Assembly (NCBI RefSeq): GCF_041146795.1
Contig: NC_135180.1
Span: forward strand, 38,236,794 to 38,300,793
Direction of reading: 5' to 3'
Length of the DNA stretch: 64,000 bases
Source of the DNA: Maylandia zebra
Lineage: Eukaryota > Chordata > Actinopteri > Cichliformes > Cichlidae
The translations under genes were made by a program, and so were the position numbers. Below, piece by piece: positions 2,180 through 54,600 of this stretch; the first letter of the stretch is position 1; each line of letters begins with the position of its first letter. A model generated the notes under the pieces. That model did no database searches. It worked only from the letters and a program-made list of their open reading frames with translations, and was not told the DNA's origin.

Positions 2180-5100
2180 TCAGAAGTGCGAGGCGGGATG
2201 ATGTCGGTGGTGATGGTGGGCCAGCTGCCCGCTGCTGGCCTTGTCTCTCAGCATGGTTAGTGCAGTGTTGGAGAAATCCCTCAGGATGTCCACGGTCTCC
2301 CGCTGGAGCTGCAGGGACTCCTGCACGAACTCATGCTGGCTCTCCACGAGCAGCTGGACCGATTGAGCCAACGTCTCCAGAGACTGAGACACCGAGGTCA
2401 GGAGCATCCTGCTGGCCCGCTGCTGCTGCAGGCTTTGAGACGCCACCTGGGCGACCTGCTCGTGTGCCCTGCGTGAGGACGCTCCAGCTGGGAGAGGGTC
2501 CGATAGGCTTGAGCCTGAGGTGGGAGCACTGCGTGGAAAGATGGAGGAGGAGGGAGGAGGCTGGCTTCGAGAAGAAGAGGAAATAGTGGCAGAGGTGACT
2601 GTTGAGAACGCAGAGGAAGCTTCAGGTGGTGGAATTGAGGTAGAAGGTCGAGGGTGAGAGGAAGCACCATTGGCTGCAGCAGGTGCAGAGGAAGATGATG
2701 GAGGAGGGAATGAAGAGGGAGCAGGGAGGGCGGAGCCAGGTCTGTTGGAGGTGCTGGGGGACCGTGATGGTGGGGGGACAGCAGAGGATGAAGCAGCTTC
2801 TGAATCAGAAGCCAAAGGAAAGCCAGAGGACGTGGAAGCCACTGAGGAGGAGGAAGGTCCGGGTGGAGGTCTGCTGGAGGAGGAGGAGTTCTGGATGGTT
2901 TGGCTCTGGCCGTTGCTGCTTCGGGAGTACGTGTAGACGGGCTTCACCCTCATCAGGGCGTTATCGGGCAGAGGATCGAGGGAGGTGGGGGGTGGCCGGA
3001 CGGAGGAAGGGTAGGAGAACATGGAGTCGTCGTTTTCATCAAAATCCATCATTTGTTCTGTGAAGGACAAACGCCACAGGAGGATCAGTTTATTCTTTAA
3101 AGGAGCAGCACTGAAACATGCAGGGTGATGCAAACTCTCATTACTGTCATTGATGCTGTCACCAGATTAAAACGAGGACAGAAGAAACCGCACCGTTGAG
3201 ATGTTTACATCGTGTTTCTACACGCAGTAAACCATCTTTGTTTCTCCACATTTTACAGGAATTTCTAAGAAACGCACAAATCTAGAAGATGAATGTTCAG
3301 GGTTTTCATTTCTTATTCCTCACTTCACTGCCTCCATCAGATTATGGCCGAGGCTCAGGTATGACATTCATGCTTGTGCCAAATGAAAGCAGGAAGTTTA
3401 CAGGACCTCACAACATTTTCAAACGCCCACGTCATGCCTGATTCATATTCATTTAATGCACATTATGTATGATTTTTAACACTTGCAGCCAAACGTTGGA
3501 CTGCATGGTTTAAAAAATAAGTATCAACAGTGTCCTTACCTCCATCGTCACCCAGGTCAAAGTCAGACGAGGAGTGGAAAGGATCTCCTGCAAAAACATG
3601 AGAACGTCATGAAAATGTCCAAGAAGGCCTCAAGAAGGCTTTGACATCTGAACTGGATATAAGAACTTTTTTTTCTCTTCTTAAACAATCGATTTGTACG
3701 TCGGTGACGATGGGAGATCAGTCTCACAACCAACCGTTTCATATTTATATTAAATGGAAAACAGGACCCTGAAGCTCCATGGTTTACACCTCAGAGTCTG
3801 GTCCAAATAACCCTCGATCGAGCTGCCAGAGCTTTTTCTTTACTCACCACCAAGTTCTTTTTCAGGTGAGGAGAGAGGTGAAATTTCAAAAGAGGGTCCT
3901 CCTGATAAAGTGTGAGTGCCGTCTGTCAGACTGAGGTAGGAGTAGGGGGAACTGCTGGAGGGTAGCCCTTTACTGCACATCTTTGAGAAGTCGTCGTCTT
4001 CTCCCAGGTCCAGGTCGCTGTCGCCGTCTGAAAACCAACACATGAAATCTGAGTAAATTCTGATACTCTGACTGGACGGATCCTCATAGATATATCTGAT
4101 GCCTTTTTTTAAATATCACTGTAACCTCCTCTCTCAGTTTTACACTGACCACGCTAACAATGCAGCACCATCCTGCAAAGTGAAATGCCTTTGAGAGGCA
4201 GCGGACAGAGCGCATCTGCTGATTGGCTGCCAGTAATGTGATCAGCTTCCAGCTGCAGCAGCAAAGAATACATCAGACAGATTACTTAGTTCAGGAAGTC
4301 AGTTTGTGCATGCAGTGTTTTCCTTAGCCTCTAGGGGCAGTGCTGAGCACAACGCTTCTCTAGACTTTCAGCACTTGACCCAGGAAGTACACAGCCCCCA
4401 GCAGGCTGATAAAAACACTTTCTAACCACAGTTTGTGTACACAGCACATTAAATCTGTAATAAAATAAACAACAGAACACACACACTGAAGCCACAGCAA
4501 TATGAAATATACACCAGTGTCAGTGATGCACGACGCTGTAACTCGAGTTAGTTGTAAAATCAGCTGTACGAATTTAGACCAGTTTTTACAGCCACCTAGC
4601 AGGATGCAGAGCATCTCTGCTGCCAGAAGGTGGCGTTAATGCGCCGTGAAGCTGTCGAACAACAGATCACCTCACTAGCAGGTGCTGGGTCACTGACAGC
4701 TGAGTGGCACAGTGAGAAAAACCAGGAGAAACCTGTGAAGTCGAGACAAACGTCTGAAAAACAAACAAAAATGAGGTCTGGTTGAAACGCCAACGCGTGC
4801 AGTGACATGACGGCAGCTTGGGGTGAGACTAATCTCTGAAGAACATCAGCCTTTTATGAGGTAAAAAGGACTATTACATTAAAGAATTTATAAAGCAGTG
4901 AAGTGAAACTAAACTAACACGTGTTTTCATCACGGGCTGGATGGCATCATCTTGTTTCCTTTCCTAAAGGATGGATTTTAGTGCATCCTTTGCGAAAGGA
5001 GGCAGCAGTGAAGCGCCTTTCCTTCGGATTTGGAGAGTTGAACAGCTGTTATTGTGGCTGAAACTCTGATACTTCTGGGTCACTTCACTCACTTAGAAAC

Positions 5101-50200: not shown

Positions 50201-51579
50201 CTTGTGTGGGGGAAGACCAAGGCGTTCCCAGGCCAGCCAAGAGATATAATCTCTCCAGTGTGTCCTGGGTCTGCCTCGGGGCCTCATCCCGGTGGGACAT
50301 GCACGGAACGAGGCACCCAGGAGGCATCTCTGTCAGATGCTCGAAACACCTCAACTGGCTCCTTTTGATGTGAAGGGGCAGTGGCTCTACTCTGAGCCCC
50401 TCCTGGATGGCCGTACTCACCCTATCTCTAAGGGAGAGGCCAGCCACCCTTCAGAGGAAGCTCATTTGCCACTTGTATCGGCAACCTCGTTCTTTCGGTC
50501 ACTGCCCACAGCTCGTGACAATAGTTGAGGGTAGGGACGTAGATCAACCGGGAAATTGAGCATCTGCATCACTGCGGCCGCTGCCCAGTCCGTCTGTCGA
50601 TCTCCCGATCAAGTCTGACTTATTGCCGATATGTGGACCAATCTCTTGCAATAGTTGTATAGGGACTGAATGGCCGTAGCAATGGGCCAGACACCCCATA
50701 CTCCCTGAGCACCCCCCACAGGACCCCCCGAGGGACACGGTCGAATGCCTTCTCCAAGTCCATAAAACACATGTAGATTGGTGGGCAAACTCCCATGCAC
50801 CCGCAAGTATCCTTGTGAGGGTAAAGGGCTGGTCCAGTGATCTATGACCAGGATGAAAACCGCATTGTTCCTCCTGTATCCGAGGTTCGACTAATGGACT
50901 AACTCTCCTTTCCAGCACCCTGGCATAGACTTTCCCAGGGAGGCCGAGGAGTGTGATTCCCCCTGTAGTTGGAATACAACTGGGGTAGCTCAGGAGGTAG
51001 AGCAGGTCATCTGTTGATCGGTTGGTGGTTCGATTCCTGGCTCCTGTCTGCATGCCGAATACACTTGCTCCCCACTTGCTCTCCGATGCATTCATACTCC
51101 TATCAGAGCTTGGTGGCTCCTTCACATCTGGTGTCCACCATTTGGTGCGGGGGTTACCACCACGACAGGCACCAACCACCTTGCGGCCGCAGCTCAGTGC
51201 AGCGGCTTCGACAGTGGAGATGCTGAACATGGTCCATCCGGACTCAATGTCCCCAGTCTCCCTCAGAATGCTGTTGAAGCTGAAGATCTCGCGGACTGGG
51301 CCTCTGCTAGGCGTTACCAACACACCCTCACTATACATTTTAGCGTGACAGGTCTGTCCAGCGCCATCCCTTGCCACCTGATCCAACTCATTTTATATAG
51401 CGGTCATTATCTCCAGGTACAGTTCACACACACAGAGTGACGTTTCTCGTTTCTCTCCCGCAGGCCGAGACTCGGCGCTCTGCTGCACAGAGTCGTTGGC
51501 GTTGGTCTGCTCTACCTGATCTTCTCCATCATCGAGGGACTCTTAAGAGTCAACGCTGTGAGTCCCAAGAGCGCTGCAG

Positions 51580-51654
<75 letters not shown>

Positions 51655-54600
51655 TGACATGTTTTTCTCTGCAGGATCGAGGGGACACCAGCAGTAGAGT
51701 TTTGTGTGACATAGTGCTGGCCTTCACTGATTCCTGTATTGTCTGGTGGATATCCTTTAACATGTATTAAGAGAATCATCCTCTCACGCTTAATTAATCT
51801 TTTGAAAACTAAATAAAATCCGTCACACATAAGTGCACATAAATCACTGAAGAATGTATTAATGACCACACTGTCAGGATTTAATAAAGAGGCATCGGCG
51901 TGGGGAGGCATCTTTTTGTGTTTGTAGGGGTTTTCCTCTCAGAGTCATCGTTTTGGGAGGAGAGTATTGAAATGAATCATACCGAGGGTTTTTCTTAATT
52001 TAATGCAGACAAGAGTCTCTTTTGCACCTGTTGTGGCTGTGTTAGCTTCCATTAGGGGCGTTAATTTATTTGAAATGCCAGAGCGAGGTGTCCGTGCATA
52101 ATTGGTTTGAGTGGACGGCTCAAAGCTGCGAGCTCCGTGCCAAAGGTTTGGTTCGGTCCTGTAAATCTCTGCAGGCTTAAAGCTGAGCCCCAAATGTTTC
52201 TGCTCTGCACATTTGAGCTACACGGACCTAAACTAGGTGTCAAATGCATCCAGGGAGCATCGGCAGTGAAGGTTTCTTTTTCCCGTTTCATGCCTTTTCT
52301 TGGACAAACACATTGCTTACAAGATTTTATTTTATTTAGAAGCCTGAGCCCTCGTCAGTGGCAGGTCACCAAAAGTCTTCGACTGTGGGGGGGAAAGTTA
52401 CAGCAGTCAAAATGAAGTAAAACACACCGGATGTATAAGAAATAGCTGAAACGAGTCCAATCAGATAAAAATAACAATAAGCAAAATGAAAACATCAATG
52501 AGGTAAAAATGGACCATCCAATAAACTAAAATAAGCATAAATTAAAGTAAAAACTGAATTTATAATAAAAAATTCAGCAAAGCAAAAAAACCACAGAATT
52601 CAACTGACTTAATATTTTATGACACATTTAAGTCTAAATTTAAAGTCCAAACGAAGCGGCTGTTTCAGCTGCAGCCACCAGAGGGCGATACATCTCTGAA
52701 CACACCGGGTCCTCTTGTTTGTCTCTTCCTGTTTGTTTTTCCCTGCTGGGGGATGTAAATGCGTCCGACCCACTAAAATATCCAATGATGGAGCGACATG
52801 AGGGATGCTGAATAAACTCCACCCACCTGCTGCACCCTGATGAGCAAAACAAACCTTTTAGACTGAACAGAAGCTGTTCGCTGTGCTGCGTGTGGGTGGG
52901 CTGTGTGTGCATTTCTCTTCTTCCTCTCACCCTTCTCTTTTCTGTTTACTTCCTCCGTTCTTTTCCTTCCCTTCCTGCTTTCTTGCGTCCCTCCTCTTCC
53001 TCTTCATTTTGTCTCCTTCGCCTCATCCTCCGTGTCTTCTCCTGTCTTTCCGTCTCCAGGCTGAAGATGATGTAGTGCTCCTGGCTGCTATTCCTCTGGC
53101 TGTGCTCGACTCTACCCTCTGCTGGTGGATATCCGCCGCTGCACCTTCCCCCCTTTCTAGTGAAAGTTTGGCTTTCTCTCCCTTTCTTTTTCACTTGTTT
53201 CTACCTTGCTGCTTTGTTACATATTTAGCCAGAGCTAACTGATACATGGACCCTTGAATCAGAGGTGTCCTTAAACATCAGAGGGTCCGTTTTGAGAGTT
53301 ACCCTGAAGCACCAGGAGAACTCAAAGCATGATCGGCACAGAGAAAATCCGACAGGTGCGTCTGCTGTTGGGTTGTTCCTACCTGTGCAGTGGCAGGGAG
53401 GGAGTGGATGTTAGCTGAGTGGGACAGAGTTAAAGTATTAAATTGTCCTGCGTGTGAAGTGAATGTTGCATGACAAGTTTCAGCCTTCCTCTTGGTGAAG
53501 TTCCTTGACCGTGTCGTCACATCTTTGTGAGCCTGATTCAGACGATGAAGCTGCTGCGCCTCAGGAGGAACGTGGTGAAGCTCTTGCTCTACAGACACTT
53601 CACCAACACGCTCATCTTTGCTGTCATAGGTATTCAAAGTTCTCTTTGTGTTTAACATTTTATTTTCATGTCCTTGTTTTAAGGATGTTTGTGTGCTTTT
53701 CAGCGTCGGTCATCTTCATCATCTGGACCACGAAGACCTTCAGGATGTCCAAATGTCAGTCTGTAAGTGCTTCAGCGCTTGGATTCAGTTAAAGCTGCTC
53801 TCCAGCTTCTCTCTCTTTCATTTCTTGCTTTCATTTGGTTGGTAAATTTCATTGGAGAATATTTAAGTGCAAAAATGAGAAGAATTACGATTAATTCGAT
53901 TTATTCTCTGAACCGAGTTTGTTTTTTCTACCTCACTGCTGAATCTCTCTCTCTCTGCAGGACTGGAGGGAGCTGTGGATAGATGACGCTTTCTGGCGTT
54001 TCTTGTTCTCCATCATCCTATTGGTCATTATGTTTCTATGGCGACCGTCAGCCAATAACCAGAGGTGGGATGTTGTTTTGGGGTTTTTTAATCCCCAGTC
54101 TCCAGTTTGTGTCTGTAAAGTAAAGCCGTGTCCTCTGTGTCTGTAACAGGTACGCCTTCAGTCCTCTGGTGGATGAAGAGAGCGATGAAGAGGAGAAGGA
54201 GCCCATGATGAACGAGGCTTTTGGTCAGAATGCACACCCGCCTCACTTCTCTCCTCTTTCTGTTTAGCCTGAGATGAAATGAATCCATTAAAGTGGATTC
54301 GTTCGGTTTATTCTTCAGCTCCATGATTCACTCTTCATAATAATCCGTTATCTGATACTCAGTCCATCCTCCGTCTAGGGCGAGCCGTTTTAGCTTTTAG
54401 CCCTTTAAACCAGCCTTCTTCTGATTGGATGCCCCTCATTAACAAGAGCTTTGAGGAGCAGCTGTGACCTCATTATTAGAAACTCATTTTTAACACGTTA
54501 ACGATGTTAAATACGTTTCCATCATTGAAACAGGAGCCATGCTGCACATGTGTGAGGTACCTCTGGTAAACGATCATCTACGTTTTATTATTTTTCTCAC

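Follow-up and report, generated by a model that had tools for sequence, protein, structure and literature searches.

A predicted pair of interlocked U2/U12 mutually exclusive TM5 exons in the TMEM87A gene of Maylandia zebra

Exons that are kept apart by incompatible U2- and U12-type splice sites are known from the JNK genes. In MAPK8/9 the exons 6a/6b (7a/7b) have interlocked U2 acceptors and U12 donors, and the stretch between them is a hybrid intron, as described for the JNK genes (PMC3584512). Among human clusters of mutually exclusive exons, 5 of 629 show U2/U12 incompatibility (Hatje 2017, PMC5740500), the same class of enforcement as that proposed here; the five genes are unnamed in the parts of the text seen, and the main text does not mention 'TMEM87'. 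A MAPK8/9-like interlocked arrangement has also been ascribed to TMEM87a and TMEM87b (Akinyi & Frilander 2021, PMC8329584), and an editorial counts both among the genes with U2/U12 competition (PMC10565666). In the mouse, exons 11 and 11a of Tmem87b, both 72 bp long, are mutually exclusive by RNA-seq and RT-PCR, with no joining reads, and Tmem87a is listed among the genes that skip the exon upstream of a minor intron; specific splicing events around single minor introns seem to be unconserved between mouse and human (Olthof 2019, PMC6717393). An initial annotation of the DNA studied here had known of no report for TMEM87A, which these papers contradict, one covering TMEM87a/b and the other the mouse Tmem87b pair with Tmem87a in its list. 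No title on fish TMEM87 exons was found among the matches listed in our literature searches, which were not aimed at fish.

The window, i.e. the whole stretch of 64,000 nucleotides that was analysed, carries at 51465-53629 the portion of a TMEM87A gene that runs from TM4 to TM6 (Table 1). The arrangement is confirmed to be real and to have been read correctly in the initial annotation, and it is the one that mammals are already known to have; the TMEM87 switch reported for the mouse is thereby extended to another vertebrate genome. Judging from the sequence, we consider the pair to be this genome's TMEM87A version of the known interlocked U2/U12 mutually exclusive exons, with a probability of about 0.86.

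Table 1. Features of the TM4 to TM6 part of the TMEM87A gene, in positions of the window
Feature	Positions	Strand	Remarks
Upstream exon (TM4), with U2 donor GTGAGT	51465..51557	+	aligned to human TMEM87A 324-354
Perfect (TG)35.5 tract	51583..51653	+	takes up most of the 117-nt intron upstream of exon A
Exon A, alternative TM5	51675..51749	+	75 nt, phase 0, 25 residues
U12-type 5' splice site of exon A	51750..51758	+	ATATCCTTT, 9/9
Exon B, alternative TM5	53060..53128	+	69 nt, phase 0, 23 residues; same type as in the human TMEM87A structure
U12-type 5' splice site of exon B	53129..53137	+	ATATCCGCC, 6/9
Shared U12 branch site and AC 3' splice site	53501..53520	+	branch site TTCCTTGAC
Shared downstream exon	53521..53629	+	end of TM5 to TM6

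The genome yielded three TMEM87 genes, in the window and on contigs C13 and C19, and their partial joined exon peptides matched human TMEM87A with 422.6 (window), 397.1 (C19) and 371.2 bits (C13). By its predicted protein, whose best match among solved structures is human TMEM87A, the window gene is TMEM87A, a Golgi membrane protein of the GOST seven-TM family for which a cation current has been reported. The naming as TMEM87A or TMEM87B also draws on C-terminal motifs that we take to tell the two apart, and on these the C13 gene is presumably TMEM87B-like. The motif EGMKMR is found in the C19 gene as in the window gene. When the joined isoforms of the window gene were compared to Pfam PF06814 (GOST_TM), the one with exon A gave 269.0 bits and the one with exon B 266.9 bits, which means that the two fit the family equally well.

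Re-reading of the sequence bore out the coordinates and frames proposed for exons A, B and the shared exon, and likewise their splice sites: both alternative exons have U2-type CAG acceptors and end in TGGTGG (Trp-Trp) followed by the U12-type ATATCC, and ahead of the shared exon come a U12 branch site and the acceptor AC. The donor consensus of U12 AT-AC introns is ATATCCTTT-like, the branch site TTCCTTRAC lies about 10–16 nt before the acceptor, and the intron ends in AC. The intron after exon A agrees with this at every point, since its donor, ATATCCTTTAAC, scores 9/9, and a 9/9 branch site at 53501-53509 has its A 12 nt before the AC end. The donor of exon B, ATATCCGCCGCT, is a less certain U12 site, as it scores 6/9, keeping the ATATCC core and differing at +7 to +9. 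Every stretch in the 60 nt before acceptor A stays below a 6/9 match to the U12 branch site, and in the 60 nt upstream of acceptor B the best match is just 6/9, as is to be expected if the stretch between the exons is a hybrid. The locus is thus built like a JNK locus, with two homologous exons, each having a U2 acceptor and a U12-type donor, and one shared U12 acceptor.

The motif TGGTGGATATCC occurs exactly twice in the window, at donors A and B, with a mean of 0.00 in 100 shuffles. The single motifs are not rare, with three RTATCCTTT found as compared to 1.05 expected and one branch site followed by AC as compared to 0.84, so the evidence lies in the combination of the sites together with the homology. 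The peptides of A and B share 8 of their last 17 residues when anchored at the donor, and their alignment score of 43 was reached by 1 in 20000 shuffles. A reading of the sites as chance motifs was rejected on the combined sites, the frame and the homology. Genome-wide (962 Mb, 63 contigs), TGGTGGATATCCTTT occurs five times, three of them in TMEM87 genes, and the reversed control gave 0; exon B of the window is absent from this set because its donor differs. The two remaining occurrences, on C4, were read as chance, as the 4001 bases around each gave no significant TMEM87 match (best E 0.21).

On this reading the U2 donor at 51557 can be joined to the U2 acceptor of either exon A or exon B, and the exon chosen then requires the minor spliceosome to be connected to the shared exon at 53521. 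The A-to-B stretch, having a U12 donor and a U2 acceptor, would be a hybrid intron that neither spliceosome should be able to remove, and skipping of both exons would require a U2 donor to be joined to a U12 acceptor. The outcome would be exactly one TM5 version per mRNA. The incompatibility of donor A with acceptor B that was put forward earlier finds support in the sequence, in a paralogue that shares the design and in the JNK loci of the same genome, and we infer from these how the exons are spliced, and kept exclusive, in this organism.

The likeness to the JNK family, also noted earlier, was seen throughout the positive control, which looked at donors and branch sites: all 3 loci fetched, which were the three best JNK-like ones, have a pair of homologous exons, each followed by a GTATCCTT donor, and a single shared exon. 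The shared exons sit behind 8/9 branch-site matches (TTTCTTAAC, TCCCTTAAC and TCCCTTAAT), and at the C7 locus the branch A and the acceptor are about 19 nt apart, an unusually long distance. The JNK donors are GTATCC, whereas the TMEM87 introns run from ATATCC to AC and are of the AT-AC subtype. The searches also gave many weak kinase matches with similar scores in open frames on C3, C4, C12, C22 and C25, the frames often being 788–804 aa long and the matches in places coming as two about 1.2 kb apart on the same strand; one possibility is a single-exon family that has been amplified and has two kinase-like stretches.

Mouse Tmem87b and Tmem87a resemble the window gene in having an upstream U2 intron, two alternative exons and a U12 intron into a shared exon, a likeness drawn from the published descriptions. 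The 72-nt exons of mouse Tmem87b match in size those of the TMEM87B-type gene of this genome, the one on C13. The exclusivity in mouse Tmem87b was shown with RNA, whereas for the 75- and 69-nt exons of the window TMEM87A it is predicted from the DNA.

The C13 gene has the same design. Exon A' (GRDNGRALITAIVLAMFDSCAIWF, donor ATATCCTTC) comes before exon B' (AKDSDLALLANIPLALLDSSLCWW, donor ATATCCTTT), each of 72 nt with starts placed by eye; both donors are of the ATATCC type, and the shared exon is behind one branch site, TACCTTGAC, and an AAC acceptor. The two donors of the window had been predicted to differ in strength, and their matches to the consensus do differ; in C13 the order is slightly reversed, and a shared rule of a strong first and a weak second donor was rejected for this reason. 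Exon A of the window scores 47, with 8/17 identities, against both A' and B', and overall similarity does not show a common descent of the first exons. The pairing of A with A' relies on exon order, phase and donor class, and on what stands at residues 366, 373 and 375, criteria that were picked post hoc. That both types of gene, TMEM87A and TMEM87B, have the design here, as they do in the reports on mammals, suggests an origin before the two split, the first exons being too diverged for proof.

In the C19 gene one TM5 exon was found, of 72 nt with donor ATATCCTTT, at reverse-complement positions 5017-5088 of the stretch fetched, followed by a U12 intron of 139 nt with branch site TTCCTTAAT; a tblastn search with E up to 50 gave no convincing second TM5 exon in this gene. 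It appears that the either-or switch has been lost in this TMEM87A-type copy, so some copies can do without it. Over the last 17 residues the C19 exon scores 58 against B' (9 identities), 52 against A of the window (6), 47 against B of the window (7) and 44 against A' (6). Like the first exons, it carries Cys373 but neither Pro366 nor Cys375. What is new in detail is that in this genome the design is present in one gene of the TMEM87A type and one of the TMEM87B type, that a TMEM87A-type duplicate was found with a single TM5 exon, and that the donors rank oppositely in the window and C13 genes. At least one further GOST gene is found on C6 (C6:13564000-13570000); in the 6001 bases taken there no U12 donor was seen, RTATCC occurring twice on the strand of the gene, both times upstream of the TM5-region match.

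Exclusivity could have other causes, and steric crowding, a frameshift leading to NMD, and competing RNA structures are mechanisms that have been named for mutually exclusive exons (PMC5740500). We regard enforcement of this kind as very unlikely. The combined length of the two exons is 144 nt in the window gene as well as in C13, so that joint inclusion would keep the frame, and in the window gene the frame is open to 53629 in all four combinations tried (A, B, A+B and neither). The exons lie 1310 nt apart in the window and 270 nt in C13, where the starts were placed by eye. Since joint inclusion and skipping of both are in frame and the window exons are so far apart, the evidence goes against NMD and steric enforcement and for splice-site incompatibility. 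Even less probable is a cryptic U2 donor in TGGTGG (TG^GTGGAT), paired with an AG acceptor inside the shared exon so that the introns would be of the U2 type. Both exons do have TG^GTGGAT, and after the AC acceptor comes GTGAG, but GTGGAT is a poor donor by consensus, the splice would remove the WWIF residues that are seen in human TMEM87A, and the perfect U12 branch site would be left unexplained. The NMD, steric and cryptic U2 readings were rejected on these grounds, i.e. frame, spacing, WWIF loss and branch site.

An explanation with somewhat more in its favour, albeit still an unlikely one, is that exon B is decaying, its weakened donor rarely used and exon A in effect constitutive. Donor B, at 6/9 as compared to 9/9 for donor A, departs from the consensus where noted above and may work poorly, and the C19 sister copy was found with just one TM5 exon. 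The protein of B is nevertheless well kept: of its last 17 residues, B' shares 14 and human TMEM87A 12, as compared to 8 of 17 between A and A'. The acceptor and frame of B are intact. The interlocked, mutually exclusive pair is the reading we prefer.

The consequences of the swap were considered on the solved human TMEM87A chain, to which the residues were aligned and numbered; the numbering agrees with Y340, E347, D371, C375, W376, I378 and F379 in the description of the structure (PMC11239671). In that structure D371 of TM5 contacts a bound phosphatidylethanolamine, and W376 is a lipid contact too (PMC11239671). Both residues are present in the A as well as the B version. The solved protein is of the B type, with Pro366 and Cys375; Val366 and Cys373 are common to exon A of the window gene and A' of C13, with Val or Ile at 375. 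This pattern of no proline, a cysteine and no cysteine at 366, 373 and 375 was read off the alignments and chosen after the fact. The initial annotation had called the two helices sharply different; the versions do differ, but in part only locally, as the acid at human 364 is missing from A'. The swap probably tunes the shape, kink and packing of TM5 near the TM5/TM6 opening rather than abolishing function, as far as the residues can tell. Three human TMEM87A isoforms are named in the parts of the structural paper seen, none of them described there as a TM5 swap (PMC11239671). For structural work on TMEM87A this means that the solved human protein shows only one version of TM5, a helix in contact with the bound lipid, out of two.

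The (TG)35.5 tract ends 21 nt before exon A and is also new in detail, as a lead only. It is not unusual in itself, the window having 14 dinucleotide runs of TG or CA type with at least 10 units; in the stretches of 9501 bases taken for C13 and C19 there is no TG or CA run of 6 units or more. With such runs common in the window and none in the other two stretches, the tract cannot be given more weight than that. TDP-43 binds UG-rich sequence upstream of the acceptor of CFTR exon 9 (PMC12171016), and by analogy it is possible that binders of UG repeats control exon A through the tract. A wider scenario, which we find improbable, is that the switch has been retuned locally: the tract, through TDP-43-like binders, would lower the use of A and the weak donor of B would oppose this, the C19 duplicate would have fixed a single TM5 exon having the A-type residues at 366, 373 and 375 (no proline, cysteine and no cysteine), and the choice of isoform would be divided between the duplicates.
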